DNA from: Brevundimonas sp.
GTDB lineage: Bacteria > Pseudomonadota > Alphaproteobacteria > Caulobacterales > Caulobacteraceae
Assembly (NCBI RefSeq): GCF_029946145.1
Contig: NZ_JAQSDY010000022.1
Location: 62,001-126,000 of the forward strand
Direction: 5' to 3'
DNA: 64,000 nucleotides
The notes beneath the pieces are model-generated. The model was given only the letters and a program-made list of their open reading frames with translations, made no database searches and was not told where the DNA came from. The first letter of the stretch is position 1. Every line of letters starts with the position of its first letter. Both the position numbers and the translations under genes were made by a program. Below are positions 56,034 through 61,570 of this stretch, piece by piece.

Positions 56034-57056
56034 TCAGCCGGCCGGTTCTTCGGATACGCGGACCAGCAGCTTGCCGTCATGGTCGCCCGTGAACAAGCGG
56101 TTCAACGAACCCAGGGCGCCTTCCAGCCCGTCGTCGACATGGACCTTCCACTTCACCGTGCCGTCAGCCAGCCACGGACCCATTTCGGCGACCATCTCGC
56201 GACCGCGGTGGGCGTAGTCGAGGACCAGGAAGCCCTGGATGTTCAGGCGGTGGGTGATGATGCGCGAGAAGTTCGGCGAAGGCGGCATTTTCGTCGCGTT
56301 ATAGGCCGAGATCAGGCCGCAGACAGCCATGCGGCCGTGGGTCTTCAGCCGGTTGAACACGGCGATCATGATATCGCCGCCGACGTTCTCGAAATTCAGG
56401 TCGACGCCGTCGGGGGCCAGCCGGTCCAGCGCCTCGCCCACGTCCTCGTTCTTGTAGTCGATGGCGGCGTCGAACCCGAGTTCTTCGGTCAGCCAGCGAC
56501 ATTTGTCGGGCCCGCCGGCGATGCCGATGACGCGGCAGCCGCGCGCCCTGGCCACCTGGCCGGCGATCGAGCCGACGGCTCCGGCGGCGGCCGAGATGAC
56601 GAGGGTTTCGCCGGCCTTGGCCTTGAGCACGTCGGTGACGCCGAAATAGGCGGTCATGCCGGTCATGCCCAGGACGCTGAGGTTGGCTGTGAGGGGCATG
56701 CCGGGCGCGCGATGCACGGGGCGCAGCTCCATCTCGCCGACGACGGCGTAGTCTGACCAGCCGCCCGACAGAGGGGTGACCACGTCGCCGGCCCGGAACC
56801 GGCTGGAGCGGCTTTCCTCGACCACGCCAAGCGTCAGGCCGCGCATCACGCCGCCGATCGGCACCGGCGGCAGATAGCCTTCGGCGTCGTTCATCCAGGT
56901 GCGATTGGTGGGGTCCAGCGACAGATAGACGGTGCGGACCAGGACCTGGGATTCCTTCAGCGCGGGCACCGGCGCCTCGACCAGTTCCAGATCGCCGGAT
57001 TTGATCAGGCCCCTGGGCCGCTGGCGCAGCACCCACTGACGATTGACGCGAGCCAT
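56034..57056 (-). CDS. NADP-dependent oxidoreductase (zinc-free MDR, prostaglandin-reductase-like)
   Basis: A 340-residue medium-chain reductase. LSLDPTNRTWMND near the N-terminus is the hallmark of the leukotriene B4/2-alkenal reductase group, with the nucleotide-binding stretch ISAAAGAVGSIAGQVARARG and NFENVGGDIM. It reduces alkenals or quinones with NADPH, a detoxification role. The start is ATG 57056 (MARVNRQW) with CGGAG upstream. The gene lies 72 bases downstream of the terminator of the putative small RNA. Confidence 0.92.
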   Translation of the reverse strand: MARVNRQWVLRQRPRGLIKSGDLELVEAPVPALKESQVLVRTVYLSLDPTNRTWMNDAEGYLPPVPIGGVMRGLTLGVVEESRSSRFRAGDVVTPLSGGWSDYAVVGEMELRPVHRAPGMPLTANLSVLGMTGMTAYFGVTDVLKAKAGETLVISAAAGAVGSIAGQVARARGCRVIGIAGGPDKCRWLTEELGFDAAIDYKNEDVGEALDRLAPDGVDLNFENVGGDIMIAVFNRLKTHGRMAVCGLISAYNATKMPPSPNFSRIITHRLNIQGFLVLDYAHRGREMVAEMGPWLADGTVKWKVHVDDGLEGALGSLNRLFTGDHDGKLLVRVSEEPAG

Positions 57057-57128
57057 GACGATCTCCGGGTTTTCTTTCTGGACCCGCCCATAGTCAGCAA
57101 GCGAGGGCCCCTGTCCAGCGGGGCAAGG

Positions 57129-57242
57129 AAAAAGGCGGACCGTTTCCGGTCCGCCTGAAGTCGCATCATCGAGAATGAGGCGCGGAGGCGACAGACTGAC
57201 TTTCGTCAGTCTCAAGTCGGGGGGGCGTCGCCGCCTCCGCAT
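57129..57242 (-). ncRNA. Candidate EcfG-dependent small RNA
   Basis: No protein gene fits here. On the minus strand the sequence starts just after an EcfG-type promoter and ends in a Rho-independent terminator: GGCGGACC / GGTCCGCC around GGAAAC (57155-57134), then TTTTT to 57129. Inside, GCGGAGG...CGAC pairs with GTCGCCTCCGC to form a long bulged stem. An inner hairpin AGACTGAC-GAAA-GTCAGTCT has a GNRA tetraloop, and a GCCCCCCCGACTTG loop precedes it. The GNRA loop and T-run occur only on this strand, which fixes the orientation. The length would be about 114 bases. A C-rich loop and stress promoter recall Caulobacter GsrN; whether it is an orthologue needs an alignment. Confidence 0.68.
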
Positions 57243-57248
57243 TCTGAT

Positions 57249-57273
57249 AACGGGGCCTCCGCGCTTCGGTTCC
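57249..57273 (-). promoter_or_regulatory. Predicted EcfG promoter of the small RNA
   Basis: On the minus strand GGAAC (57273-57269), a 16-base spacer and CGTT (57252-57249) match the consensus exactly. The expected start point is near 57242. The small-RNA sequence follows at once and no open reading frame does. Confidence 0.75.
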
Positions 57274-57312
57274 GGGCGGGCGAAGGATTTTTTCGCGTCG
57301 GCGGCGAGTCCC

Positions 57313-57338
57313 GGAACGGCCACGCTGGACGGCGCGTT
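57313..57338 (+). promoter_or_regulatory. Predicted EcfG promoter of the 57375 gene
   Basis: GGAAC (57313-57317), 17-base spacer, CGTT (57335-57338), then the ATG at 57375. It is divergent from the small-RNA promoter 40 bases to the left, so one short region drives both units under the same sigma factor. Confidence 0.72.
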
Positions 57339-57374
57339 CATCAGGCTGATCCCACGCCTCGACGGAGCCGAGCC

Positions 57375-57737
57375 ATGACCCATGAATCCCCCCACGACAA
57401 GGCCGCCGACGCCGTCCATGAGGGCCGCCCCGTCGAGGCCCAGTATGTGCGCGGCGGGCGCGGCGGCGTGCGCATCCTGACCCTTCTGGTCATCTCGCTG
57501 GCCGCCGTGGCTATCCTGCTGCTGGGCATGTGGTTCGTCAGCCAGGGCGGCTTCGCCAACACCAACGCCAACAGCGGCCAGCAGGCGGTCGACGTTCAGG
57601 CCTTCCAGGGCGACGCGGCCACGCCCCCGACGGCCGATGGGCCCACCGCCGCCGGTGGAGAGCCGATCAGCCCGCCGGCGGCCGGCGAGACGCCCGCCGT
57701 CGATGCGCCGGTCGAGCCGGAGGCCACGCCCCACTGA
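57375..57737 (+). CDS. Small membrane protein, probable GSR regulon member
   Basis: A 120-residue protein. A hydrophilic N-terminus of about 33 residues is followed by one membrane span (ILTLLVISLAAVAILLLGMW). A Pro/Ala/Glu-rich, probably disordered, periplasmic tail carries no cysteines. No family is recognised. The EcfG-type promoter, a clear ribosome site and its own terminator show a self-contained, stress-controlled unit beside phyR. Confidence 0.75.
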   Translation: MTHESPHDKAADAVHEGRPVEAQYVRGGRGGVRILTLLVISLAAVAILLLGMWFVSQGGFANTNANSGQQAVDVQAFQGDAATPPTADGPTAAGGEPISPPAAGETPAVDAPVEPEATPH

Positions 57738-57800: not shown

Positions 57801-58598
57801 TTACGCCGCCGCCTTCTGGCGCGACGGATGGAAGAACAGCGCCTGGCTGATCGCCGCCTTCACCGTTTCCGGCTGGAAGGGCTTGGTGATCAGGAAGGTC
57901 GGCTCGGGCCGCTCACCGGTCAGCAGCCGCTCGGGGAAGGCGGTGATGAAGATCACCGGCACGTCGATCCGCTTGAGGATGTCCTTCACCGCGTCGATGC
58001 CCGACGAGCCGTCGGCAAGCTGGATGTCGGCCAGGACCAGGCCCGGGCGGTGACGGGCGACAGCGTCGACCGCTTCGTCGTGGGTGGTGGCGGTGCCGGT
58101 CACGCGGTGACCCAGTTCCTTCACCAGGCTTTCGATATCGGCCGAGATGATGGCCTCGTCCTCGATGATCAGGACGTCGGTGGCCAATTCGGCGTCGATG
58201 TCGGACTGGGCCTCGCCGATCAGGCGCTCCACGTCAAAGGCGTCGGCGTCCAGGATCTGGGCGGCCTCGGACGGGGTGAACCCTTCCAGCGCCGTCAGCA
58301 GGAAGGCCTGACGCGAGCGCGGCGCGATGCGCATCAGGCGGCGCGAGGCGTCGTCGGTCCGGGTGTCCAGACCGCTCTTGTCTTCCAGCTGGGCCCCGGT
58401 GGTGGTCCAGATGGCGTGGAACACGTGATAGAGGGCGACCCGCGGCGTCATGTCGGCGGGCAGTTGCCGCTCGCCGGCGGCGAGCGCCTCGAGAGCGACG
58501 CGGACATAGTTGTCCCCGGTGGTCTGATCGCCGGTCAGCGCCCGTGCGTAACGGCGAACATAGGGCAGGTGCGGCGCAAGGCGGGCCAGCAGACTCAT
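57801..58598 (-). CDS. phyR: General stress response regulator PhyR (anti-anti-sigma)
   Basis: A 265-residue regulator joining an N-terminal ECF sigma-like domain (about 1-135; YVRRYARALTGDQTTGDNYV, FLLTALEGFTPSEAAQIL) to a C-terminal receiver. The receiver has the acidic pair in LIIEDEAI, phospho-Asp D191 in LADIQLADGSSG, Thr in VIFITA, and K239 in FLITKPFQ. In the known circuit, phospho-PhyR binds NepR with its sigma-like domain and so frees EcfG. An EcfG promoter upstream gives feedback. It is divergent from nepR-ecfG, the canonical order. Confidence 0.97.
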   Translation of the reverse strand: MSLLARLAPHLPYVRRYARALTGDQTTGDNYVRVALEALAAGERQLPADMTPRVALYHVFHAIWTTTGAQLEDKSGLDTRTDDASRRLMRIAPRSRQAFLLTALEGFTPSEAAQILDADAFDVERLIGEAQSDIDAELATDVLIIEDEAIISADIESLVKELGHRVTGTATTHDEAVDAVARHRPGLVLADIQLADGSSGIDAVKDILKRIDVPVIFITAFPERLLTGERPEPTFLITKPFQPETVKAAISQALFFHPSRQKAAA

Positions 58599-58654: not shown

Positions 58655-58679
58655 AACGTATCAAATGCGCCACGGTTCC
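58655..58679 (-). promoter_or_regulatory. Predicted EcfG promoter of phyR
   Basis: On the minus strand GGAAC (58679-58675), a 16-base spacer and CGTT (58658-58655), giving a leader of about 50 bases before the phyR ATG. It matches the known autoregulation of this locus in relatives. Confidence 0.8.
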
Positions 58680-58721: not shown

Positions 58722-58746
58722 GGAACCGGCCCTGCTGAGTGGCGTT
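58722..58746 (+). promoter_or_regulatory. Predicted EcfG promoter of nepR-ecfG
   Basis: GGAAC (58722-58726), 16-base spacer, CGTT (58743-58746), about 48 bases before the nepR ATG. It is divergent from the phyR promoter. Confidence 0.85.
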
Positions 58747-58793
58747 TGGCCAGTCGCAACAAGTATTTTGTCAGGGTGGCGGCCGTTTTTTCA

Positions 58794-58994
58794 ATGACAG
58801 ACAATTCCAACCCTCCGGGCAAGGGCCCGCCCAAGGGCGGCGCAAGTCTGGAAGAGGCCCGACTTCGTCAGCAGGCGATCGGCGTCAAGCTGCGTCATAT
58901 GTTCGACGAGATCGTGAACGAGCAGGTTCCGGACGAGTTCCTGGACATCCTGCGTCGCGCCGACGAGCGGTCGTCTGGCGGGAGCGGCAAATGA
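58794..58994 (+). CDS. nepR: Anti-sigma factor NepR
   Basis: A 66-residue anti-sigma factor that holds EcfG inactive until phospho-PhyR removes it. The family core IGVKLRHMFDEIVNEQVPDE followed by FLDILRRAD is intact, with a Gly/Pro/Lys-rich disordered N-terminus. The start is ATG 58794 (MTDNSN). Its stop overlaps the ecfG start as ATGA (58991-58994), so the pair is made in coupled amounts. Confidence 0.95.
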   Translation: MTDNSNPPGKGPPKGGASLEEARLRQQAIGVKLRHMFDEIVNEQVPDEFLDILRRADERSSGGSGK

Positions 58995-59602
58995 GCGGTG
59001 CGACGAACCCGCCGCCCAAGCCTCCTTCAGCCGATGACGATGCTTTCAAACGGGAGCTGGTCGCGCTGATTCCGCATCTGCGCGCCTTCGCCCGCACGCT
59101 GACCGGCGACCCGACCGCCGCCGACGACCTGGCGCAGGACGCCATGATGAAGGCCTGGGACGCCCGGGCCAGTTATCAGATGGGCACCAACATGAAGGCC
59201 TGGACCTTCATGATCCTGCGCAACCAGTTCTATTCGGAAAAGCGCCGGTCCTGGCGCCAGTCGCAGCTCGACCAGGAAGCGGCCGAACGCACCCTGGTCG
59301 CGGTCGATGATCCGGAATCGCCGGTGGCGCTGGACGAACTGCGTCTGGCCCTGGCCACCCTGCCGGAAGAACAGCGCGAGGCGCTGATCCTGGTCGGCGC
59401 GGGCGGCTTCGCCTATGAGGAAGCCGCCGAGATCTGCCAGTGCGCCGTGGGTACGGTGAAGAGCCGCGTTTCCCGCGCCCGCAAGGCCCTGCAGGCCACG
59501 CTTGAACGGGGCGGTTACGCCCGTGACGGACGCGCCGCGGGTGACGCAATGCGCTCCATCCTCGCCGCCGCTGATCGCCTGAGCAGCGTCCGGCAGGACT
59601 GA
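58991..59602 (+). CDS. ecfG: ECF sigma factor EcfG (SigT-type)
   Basis: A 203-residue ECF15-type sigma factor directing the general stress response. Region 2 is visible in LIPHLRAFARTLTGDPTAADDL, AQDAMMKAWDARASYQMGTNMKAW in parts, and region 4 in TLPEEQREALILVGAGGFAYEE and CAVGTVKSRVSRARKALQ. It would recognise the GGAAC/CGTT promoters found in this window, including its own. The kinase gene follows five bases later. Confidence 0.95.
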   Translation: MSGATNPPPKPPSADDDAFKRELVALIPHLRAFARTLTGDPTAADDLAQDAMMKAWDARASYQMGTNMKAWTFMILRNQFYSEKRRSWRQSQLDQEAAERTLVAVDDPESPVALDELRLALATLPEEQREALILVGAGGFAYEEAAEICQCAVGTVKSRVSRARKALQATLERGGYARDGRAAGDAMRSILAAADRLSSVRQD

Positions 59603-59606
59603 CCGG

Positions 59607-61391
59607 GTGGGCCGGGTAGGGCGAGTGCTGGCCAGACGGATGGGCCGCAACCTGGGCCCGCCGCAGTTCCACGGCATCCGCTTCCGTCTGGGCTGGGCGA
59701 TGGCTGTCGCCCTGCTGCCCATACTGGTGCTGGGCGCCTTTCAGACCCAGTCCGCGTTCCGGGCCCAGGATGTCGAGCGGCGCTCGGACCTGCAACTGGC
59801 GGCCGAGCGGACGGCGGCCAACGCCAAATCCCGTCTCGACAGCACCGGCGTGCTGCTCCAGGCCCTGCGCCCGGAGGCGCTTGAGGTGTTCTGCGAGCCG
59901 CGCCTGACCGACCTTGTCGAACGGCTCGAGGATCTCGACGGCCTGGCGCGGCTGACCGCCAACGGGACGACGGTCTGCGCCTCGCGCGGCCTCCGCCAGG
60001 CCTCGCCGGTTTGGCTGGCCCAGGCGCCCTCCAGTCCGTGGTTCCTGCGGCTCAGGGGCGGGGAGAGCATGGTTCTGGCCCGTGCGCCCACCGTCGCCGG
60101 CCGATCGCCCGGCCTGATCGTGGCCATCCGGCTGGAACGTCCGCTGGGGACCTTCGCCGGCGTCATGACGGCCCTGATTCCTCTGTCCAGCCTCGAGCCC
60201 GATGTGGATGATCCCGCCCTGCCGGAGGGGTCCCAGGCGGCCCTGACCGATGGCGACGGGCGTCTGCTGACCGCCAGCGACGCCGGCGCCTTCACCCTGT
60301 CGGGCGGCGAGAGCCTGACCGGCTGGGTCGGGCGCGCCCGGTCGGGCGCCTCGGCGATCTTCGAGGCGGACGACGCTCATGGCCGCCACCGCGTCTACGC
60401 CGGCGCGGCCCTGGCCGGGCGGGACGTGTACGCCCTGCTGTCCGCGCCCGCGCCCGGCCTGTTGTCCTGGGCCCGGCTGAACCCGGTCGGGGCGCTGCTG
60501 GTGCCGCTGCTGGCCTGGTTCATCGCCTTCGCGGCGGTGATGCTGGTGAGCGAGCGGATCGTCATCCGCTGGCTGAACTATCTGGAGCGGATCGCCGCCA
60601 TCTACGCCCGGGGGCGGTTCAACGTGCGTCCGCTGCAGGCCATGAACGCGCCGGCGGAAATCCGGGTCCTGGCCCGGACCCTGGACGAACTGGCCGAGTC
60701 CATCGTCACCCGCGACGCCGCCCTGATCGCGTCGCTGGCGGAGAAGGACGCGCTGATGCGCGAGATCCATCACCGGGTGAAGAACAACCTCCAGATCATC
60801 TCTTCGCTGCTGTCGATGCAGCAGCGGGCGCTGACCGATCCGGCGTCCAAGGCGGCGGTGGGCGACACGCGTCAGCGCATCTCGGCCCTGGCCCTGATCT
60901 ATCGCACCCTCTACCAGAGCGATGACCTGCGTTACGCCGACGCACGCATCTTCCTGACCGAACTGGTGGGCCAGCTGGTGGCCAGCGAGTCCGGGCGGGG
61001 GATCGTGGTGACTTCATCGGTCGAGGCGGATTCCCTGGTCGTCGATCCCGACAAGCTGGCGCCGCTCGCCCTGTGGCTGGTCGAGGCCGTGACCAACGCC
61101 CAGAAACACGCCTTCGCGGGCCGGGGCGGCGCCCTGCAGGTCCGCTTCAACGTCCGCGGCGACAAGAGCGTGCTGGAGGTGCAGGACGACGGGCCGGGGG
61201 TCAGCGAGACCTTCCGCGCCGGTGTCGGACGCACCCTGATGGGAGCCTTCGCCAAACAGCTGAGGGGCGAGGTGGAGATGGTTTCCGCGCCCGGCGGCGG
61301 GACGATCGCGCGCCTGACCTTCGCCACGCCGGAAGCCGTCGTGCCGACGGATCCATCGGATCTGGGAACCGGAGCCGGGGCGCAACGTTGA
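59607..61391 (+). CDS. HWE/HisKA_2 sensor histidine kinase, PhyK-like
   Basis: A 594-residue membrane kinase, with GTG start at 59607 (an ATG at 59640 is possible). It has a membrane span near 27-45, a periplasmic sensor domain of about 240 residues, a second span near 295-315, and a HAMP-like linker. The HisKA_2 box MREIHHRVKNNLQIISSLLS has phospho-His near 388-389, and the ATPase domain is shown by WLVEAVTNAQKHAF and DDGPGVS. Its position after ecfG matches PhyK, which phosphorylates PhyR. The signal is unknown; the sensor domain has Cys in VFCEPR and TVCASR. Confidence 0.92.
   Translation: MGRVGRVLARRMGRNLGPPQFHGIRFRLGWAMAVALLPILVLGAFQTQSAFRAQDVERRSDLQLAAERTAANAKSRLDSTGVLLQALRPEALEVFCEPRLTDLVERLEDLDGLARLTANGTTVCASRGLRQASPVWLAQAPSSPWFLRLRGGESMVLARAPTVAGRSPGLIVAIRLERPLGTFAGVMTALIPLSSLEPDVDDPALPEGSQAALTDGDGRLLTASDAGAFTLSGGESLTGWVGRARSGASAIFEADDAHGRHRVYAGAALAGRDVYALLSAPAPGLLSWARLNPVGALLVPLLAWFIAFAAVMLVSERIVIRWLNYLERIAAIYARGRFNVRPLQAMNAPAEIRVLARTLDELAESIVTRDAALIASLAEKDALMREIHHRVKNNLQIISSLLSMQQRALTDPASKAAVGDTRQRISALALIYRTLYQSDDLRYADARIFLTELVGQLVASESGRGIVVTSSVEADSLVVDPDKLAPLALWLVEAVTNAQKHAFAGRGGALQVRFNVRGDKSVLEVQDDGPGVSETFRAGVGRTLMGAFAKQLRGEVEMVSAPGGGTIARLTFATPEAVVPTDPSDLGTGAGAQR
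61365..61389 (+). promoter_or_regulatory. Predicted EcfG promoter inside the kinase 3' end
   Basis: GGAAC (61365-61369), 16-base spacer, CGTT (61386-61389) lie within the last codons of the kinase gene and 44 bases before the entericidin-like ATG. Because part of it is coding, the match could be chance, but spacing and position are right. Confidence 0.68.
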
Positions 61392-61432: not shown

Positions 61433-61570
61433 ATGCGCAAGATTTTTGTTCTGTTCGCCGCCGCCGCCGCCCTGACGACCGCGGCCTGCAACACCGTTTC
61501 GGGCGTTGGTCGCGACGCCTCGGCCGCCGGCAGCGCCGTGACCACGGCCGCGGAAGACGCCAAGAACTAG
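61433..61570 (+). CDS. Entericidin A/B-family lipoprotein
   Basis: A 45-residue lipoprotein. The signal MRKIFVLFAAAAALTTAAC gives the lipidated Cys near residue 19, followed by the entericidin pattern NTVSGVGRDASAAGSAV and an Asn end. Entericidins are small envelope lipoproteins, some stress-induced. GGAG lies upstream of the ATG. The EcfG promoter in front makes it a likely stress-regulon member. Confidence 0.88.
   Translation: MRKIFVLFAAAAALTTAACNTVSGVGRDASAAGSAVTTAAEDAKN

Follow-up and report, generated by a model that had tools for sequence, protein, structure and literature searches.

The locus and its EcfG-type promoters

The window, by which we mean the whole 64-kb stretch of Brevundimonas DNA analysed here, holds phyR, nepR and ecfG next to a small RNA gene that is very probably gsrN (Table 1). 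The phyR gene lies upstream of gsrN on the same strand, and a HisKA_2/HWE kinase, nepR and ecfG are found on the opposite one. The true nepR start is probably an ATG later than the listed start.

Table 1. Features of the gsrN locus, with positions in the window
Feature	Position	Strand	Evidence or remark
gsrN RNA	57129..57240	-	RF01529 match and numbering; start 57240 placed by C. crescentus numbering, end by the terminator
EcfG-type promoter GGAAC-N16-CGTT of gsrN	57249..57273	-	exact pattern
7-C run, core of the 5' C-rich loop	57219..57225	-	loop kept across the family; mRNA-pairing loop in C. crescentus (PMC5869019)
8-bp hairpin with GAAA loop (57204-57201)	57193..57212	-	two-sided changes in 6/6 family-wide pairs
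Conserved 3' element TTCTCGATGATGC	57163..57175	-	within 18 consecutive (nearly) invariant columns in 34 Brevundimonas
Intrinsic terminator	57129..57156	-	two-sided changes in 8/9 pairs
phyR (context)	57801..58598	-	PF22029, PF22233, PF00072
EcfG-type promoter upstream of phyR (context)	58655..58679	-	exact pattern
EcfG-type promoter upstream of nepR-ecfG (context)	58722..58746	+	exact pattern
nepR (context)	58746..58994	+	PF18557; listed TTG start overlaps the promoter
ecfG (context)	58985..59602	+	Sigma70_r2, r4_2

The original prediction had placed a perfect GGAAC-N16-CGTT promoter on the minus strand, and it was found exactly so, with GGAAC at 57273-57269, a 16-nt spacer and CGTT at 57252-57249. 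By the C. crescentus numbering, +1 is at 57240, 8 nt past the -10 box. With a spacer of 15-18, there are 8 strict EcfG patterns in the window where 1.8 would be expected, and 8 was reached in 0 of 100 shuffles. The distance of the promoter is kept in the homologues, which were picked without regard to promoters: in 124 of 125 the first base of GGAAC is at -35, -36 or -37 relative to the model start, and for the remaining one (G044) the upstream sequence is only 10 nt long. The -10 box reads CGTT in 67 of the 125 homologues (spacer of 16 in 58 and of 17 in 9), carries one mismatch in 56 and more in G192.

Strict EcfG patterns were also seen at three other places near the locus. One of them (58917-58941, minus strand) is antisense within nepR and may be due to chance. 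Another (61365-61389, plus strand) stops about 43 nt short of a 45-aa reading at about 61433-61570 on the plus strand, which has a lipoprotein-like start and which we take to resemble an entericidin. The third, GGAAC-N17-CGTT at 57313-57338 on the plus strand, ends 37 nt before the ATG of a 120-aa frame (57375-57737, plus strand) that lies between gsrN and phyR and points away from gsrN. This frame had no Pfam match and contains one stretch that looks like a predicted membrane segment. It was found by tblastn in 99 loci, several of which are copies of one genome, with the strict EcfG pattern upstream in 91, and it is probably another gene of the locus under EcfG control.

Fold, covariation and reading frames

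Folding of the minus strand of 57129-57245 with RNAfold, as proposed with the original prediction, gave -61.3 kcal/mol (z -6.2), and an equal stability was reached in 0 of 200 shuffles. The long stem with a 7-C loop, the GAAA-capped 8-bp hairpin and the terminator that had been described are all present on this strand at the coordinates given for them. The 7-C run sits in the loop of the long stem, and the terminator consists of a 10-bp stem (57156-57133) followed by TTTTT (57133-57129). The GAAA loop varies among 34 Brevundimonas sequences, where GCAA, GAGA, CACA, TTCA and others occur. The plus strand also folds (z -4.5, 0 of 200 shuffles), so that the fold alone does not fix the strand; the promoter, the T-run and the Rfam match do.

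Compensatory changes in the stems, which the original prediction had named as a test, were found both across the family and within the genus. Counted on structures that were derived from the same alignments, which favours them, 96.0 % of the cells pair in 59 homologues (a diversity-chosen subset of the 125) with two-sided changes in 18 of 26 pairs, and 97.9 % pair in 34 Brevundimonas sequences (33 distinct) with two-sided changes in 13 of 22 pairs. In the family-wide set none of the five observed measures was reached in any of 500 shuffles, and sliding one arm by 1-3 columns lowered the pairing to 34-48 %. In the Brevundimonas set any of the five measures was reached by at most 1 of 500 shuffles. 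This pattern of substitution indicates that the stems of the gsrN RNA are under selection.

The statement that the region has no open reading frame was literally wrong. A 566-codon frame with a GTG start (56034-57734, minus strand) spans the element, and a 67-aa frame (57175-57378, plus strand) overlaps it. We take both to be chance frames of GC-rich DNA, because the downstream oxidoreductase has an ATG at 57056, with its Pfam match beginning at residue 6 from there, and because the length of the C-run varies between homologues and shifts the reading frame. The long frame, together with the folding of the plus strand, could be read as a DNA hairpin or a part of a coding frame that has no function as RNA. 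We give this reading almost no credence, since promoter, terminator and compensatory changes are conserved whereas the frame is broken by the changes in C-run length.

Identity with GsrN and distribution

When the window was searched with the covariance models of all Rfam families, RF01529 (CC3552) was the sole family above its cut-off. It matched 57134-57238 on the minus strand with 105.8 bits (cut-off 50), the match covered the model at its full length (positions 1-106 of 106), and nothing notable differed. The RF01529 search found one gsrN copy in this genome. Covariance model R1, which was built with the gsrN sequence of the window among its members, gave 122.4 bits on gsrN and at most 15.4 elsewhere in the window. 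A candidate second copy in four other genomes (G078, G151, G155, G159) was rejected: the four matches have 35-37 bits, which is under the cut-off, are all of one sequence kind without an EcfG pattern, and were judged to be coding.

GsrN of C. crescentus (CCNA_R0081) was described by Tien, Fiebig and Crosson (2018, PMC5869019). It is dependent on sigma-T and has six cytosines in its loop, a length of 106 nt, as taken from the deletion 59-106, and internal ends at C53/T54 and T64 (PMC5869019). As a landmark test we took, rather than the NA1000/CB15 sequence itself, four RF01529 members whose gsrN does not adjoin phyR. In two of them, G130 and G077, a single one of the nine offsets tried brought all published landmarks (106 nt, six C, C53, T54, T64) into register; these are close relatives of C. 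crescentus in which gsrN lies 83 kb from phyR and on another contig, respectively. G096 (113 nt) and G134 (109 nt), also with a distal gsrN, differ in length and the published numbering does not fit them. The control genome of Caulobacter vibrioides has an RF01529 match too. Through the landmark fit in G130 and G077, and so by an indirect route, RF01529 (CC3552) is equated here with GsrN, the family name CC3552 being older than the name GsrN. A literature search found no paper that equates the two.

The RNA of the window is like C. crescentus GsrN in promoter type, in length (about 106-110 nt) and in RF01529 membership, as well as in its long stem enclosing a C-rich loop, its small hairpin and its terminator; it has seven C in the run against six in C. 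crescentus (PMC5869019). Because of the RF01529 score, the landmark fit, the kept promoter, the place beside phyR and the covariation of the stems, we regard the element with good confidence as the gsrN gene of a Brevundimonas species and a single-copy orthologue of Caulobacter GsrN, in line with the original prediction. The covariance search in relatives and the comparison with GsrN proposed there gave the full-length RF01529 match and homologues across the Caulobacteraceae. The gene as such is already known in Brevundimonas, as a member of a described family at its usual place; BLASTn homologues of GsrN in Caulobacter, Brevundimonas and Phenylobacterium have been reported (PMC5869019).

Convergence, by which an independent small RNA driven by EcfG would have come to resemble GsrN in its C-rich loop and stress promoter, is conceivable in principle, as the Rhizobiales 'GsrN-like' RNAs were chosen by position and promoter (PMC5869019). 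A full-length covariance match of 105.8 bits and intergraded homologues across three large genera make it highly improbable here. The GsrN-like RNAs of Rhizobium, Sinorhizobium and Brucella share with our element an EcfG site, a place near the GSR locus and an exposed 5' loop (PMC5869019), this loop being C-rich according to the main text and G-rich according to a figure legend of the same source. Their discovery relied on position and expression rather than on sequence (PMC5869019), whereas our RF01529 searches covered the Caulobacteraceae and their order.

Matches to RF01529 were found in 125 of 199 Caulobacteraceae genomes (119 over the cut-off) and in 17 of 22 genera; in an order-level draw 52 of 299 genomes had one, and all 52 belong to the Caulobacteraceae. 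PhyR (E up to 1e-40) was detected in 151 of the 199 family genomes. Both phyR and gsrN occur in 123 genomes, phyR alone in 28, gsrN alone in 2 (G004, G050) and neither in 46. For 20 of the 28 genomes that have phyR but no RF01529 match the phyR loci were searched with model R1, which matched 6 at E up to 1; the match in G018 (E 0.57) probably arose by chance. Three matches outside the Proteobacteria, among those listed in a scan of named genomes (Actinoplanes and two Bryobacterales), were likewise taken as chance.

Of the 123 genomes with both genes, 106 have gsrN downstream of phyR on the same strand, at a distance of 59-1378 nt (median 708.5). In the other 17 the two genes are on different contigs (9) or far apart or inverted (8: G074, G192, G011, G010, G012, G041, G130 and G096). 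From these eight genomes, relocation of gsrN is not confined to the C. crescentus group. In the published account GsrN homologues typically adjoin ecfG, nepR or phyR and C. crescentus is the exception, its gsrN being distal from phyR, in contrast to the Brevundimonas gene studied here (PMC5869019). The original prediction had made gsrN a part of the core circuit by virtue of its location. The place beside phyR stood, being kept in 106 of 123 genomes; the role in the circuit did not follow, since it is argued from position and gsrN of C. crescentus showed no feedback on GSR transcription (PMC5869019).

katG leaders and the conserved 3' element

By analogy with C. crescentus, NepR would release EcfG under stress and EcfG would transcribe gsrN. 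Cleavage of the RNA close to where its long stem ends would then leave a stable 5' piece, and the C-rich loop would pair with G-rich stretches of mRNA leaders and alter translation. The loop of C. crescentus GsrN base-pairs with nucleotides 1-7 of the katG mRNA (PMC5869019). In the C. crescentus relatives G130 and G077 the katG leaders contain GTCGGGG, the complement of the loop's CCCCGAC, which is the published pairing. The present genome has katG, and it differs from C. crescentus (PMC5869019) in being without a katG site of the published type: neither TCGGGG nor CGGGG was found in the katG leaders of this genome and 28 other Brevundimonas. A GGGTGGG 38 nt before the katG start here is absent from the leaders L290, L296 and L299.

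The analysis took in 30 of the Brevundimonas, 30 of the Caulobacter and 20 of 29 Phenylobacterium katG loci, from which 1, 2 and 3, respectively, dropped out at contig ends, and a simple rule assigned the start codons. Motif counts were compared with shuffles in place of RNAduplex energies, which for the loop against the katG leader gave no clear genus signal (mean z +0.14 in 29 Brevundimonas and -0.39 in 28 Caulobacter). Between -80 and -15, 16 of 28 Caulobacter leaders have CGGGG, where 5.6 are expected by shuffling; the figures are 6 of 17 against 2.9 expected for Phenylobacterium and 0 of 29 against 2.0 expected for Brevundimonas. This last zero is only slightly under chance, the contrast being the excess in Caulobacter. 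TCGGGG is present in 6 of 28, 4 of 17 and 0 of 29 leaders, respectively. Fisher values on these leader counts ignore relatedness and so overstate significance. Regulation of katG through the published site is probably absent in Brevundimonas, and the loop would therefore have to have other targets. As far as the leaders tell, the best-proven part of the GsrN mechanism does not carry over to this genome because the katG site is absent.

The RNA carries a second conserved part, the 3' element TTCTCGATGATGC, where G130 and G077 have TTTGTTGATGC. The element, UUCUCGAUGAUGC, was looked for in a slightly relaxed form and found in 68 of 75 Brevundimonas, 25 of 29 Phenylobacterium, 6 of 38 Caulobacter and 15 of 24 sequences of other genera. 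Five or more C in the C-run were counted in 70 of the 75 Brevundimonas. These 75 sequences come from 131 genomes searched and have the 30 best-scoring loci and 20 chosen mostly for their low scores among them; of these 20, G521 (no promoter) was left out, and G541 (no promoter, E 0.03) was kept. Two of the seven that lack the element, G523 and G509, are about one base away from it. An RF01529 match is lacking in 6 of the 40 Brevundimonas of the family sample: G107, G180, G198, G174 and G186, which were examined beside phyR, and G127.

Several genomes carry one part of the RNA in altered form or lack it. In G107 (L130) and G180 (L132) the locus beside phyR combines a strict promoter and a terminator with the 3' element, but its 5' part is a different one that has no C-rich loop. 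G198, also beside phyR, has a reorganised 5' hairpin and a shorter C-run with the element intact, and a similar form was seen in G127, whose PhyR matches are all distant (best 1e-67). A reorganised 5' part with four or five C was seen in ten genomes, which were found through low scores and may be one clade; all of them carry the strict promoter and the element (10/10). The C-loop is kept and the 3' element gone in G174, beside phyR, and G083 and G092 have the C-loop without the element. Nothing recognisable of gsrN was seen at the phyR locus of G186. The patterns of G107, G180, G174, G083 and G092 argue that C-loop and 3' element are lost separately. In the published homologues the C-loop is the most conserved part, and nucleotides 59-106 of the C. 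crescentus RNA are dispensable for peroxide survival (PMC5869019), both in keeping with the element's decay in Caulobacter.

We tentatively propose that GsrN is a two-module RNA, although we would not wager on it. The 3' element of Brevundimonas and Phenylobacterium would be a second seed or a protein site with its own targets, retained even in RNAs whose C-rich 5' module was replaced, and control of katG by the C-loop would be a Caulobacter trait. We see about an even chance that the element is instead only a cleavage, stability or Hfq site of a single-module RNA, with no second set of targets. The dispensability of 59-106 is in keeping with this, as are the effect of hfq on processing and the internal 5' ends T54 and T64 near the element's place in C. 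crescentus (PMC5869019), and no target for the element was found in our analysis of this genome and the window. According to PMC11005374, a function of Hfq in GsrN activity has not been observed. Against a simple processing or binding site, 13 fixed mixed bases are hardly needed by a protein or for cleavage, the element persists without the C-loop in G107 and G180, and it has decayed in all but 6 of the 38 sequences examined from Caulobacter, the genus in which processing and the Hfq effect have been seen.

Elsewhere in the window, sequences complementary to the loop or the 3' element were not clearly more frequent than by chance. A gene of this genome that we take to be glmS has a 14-nt perfect complementarity to the 3' element (L335, G000:C27:150069-150084); it was rejected as a target and kept as a lead only, because the site encodes GIIEN and a 13-mer match in a genome is unremarkable. 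The complement encodes GIIEN in 12 of 20 further fetched 13-mer hits, and the complementarity to glmS is probably due to chance. Six other near matches in the genome, with 2 mismatches each, gave no defensible start-codon site. A conserved hairpin at the 3' element was also set aside, as RNAalifold draws it in Brevundimonas without two-sided changes and does not draw it family-wide.

Work on GsrN has centred on its 5' half and on one target in a single species. Neighbouring genera keep a conserved second part, which is all that the natural variants G107 and G180 carry, and the one proven target site is missing in Brevundimonas; together this makes the targets of GsrN besides katG testable in that genus. 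Should the two-module proposal be true, the undefined target behind osmotic protection (PMC5869019) could be of the second-module kind. A literature search of mostly open-access papers, preprints excluded, found no report of the second conserved part or of the missing Brevundimonas katG site, and both are new results of sequence comparison.

At the phyR locus of a Phenylobacterium genome (G181, L135) we observed a strict EcfG pattern and a terminator that delimit a candidate short RNA with neither C-loop nor 3' element. A suggested reading of this candidate is replacement or decay in place.
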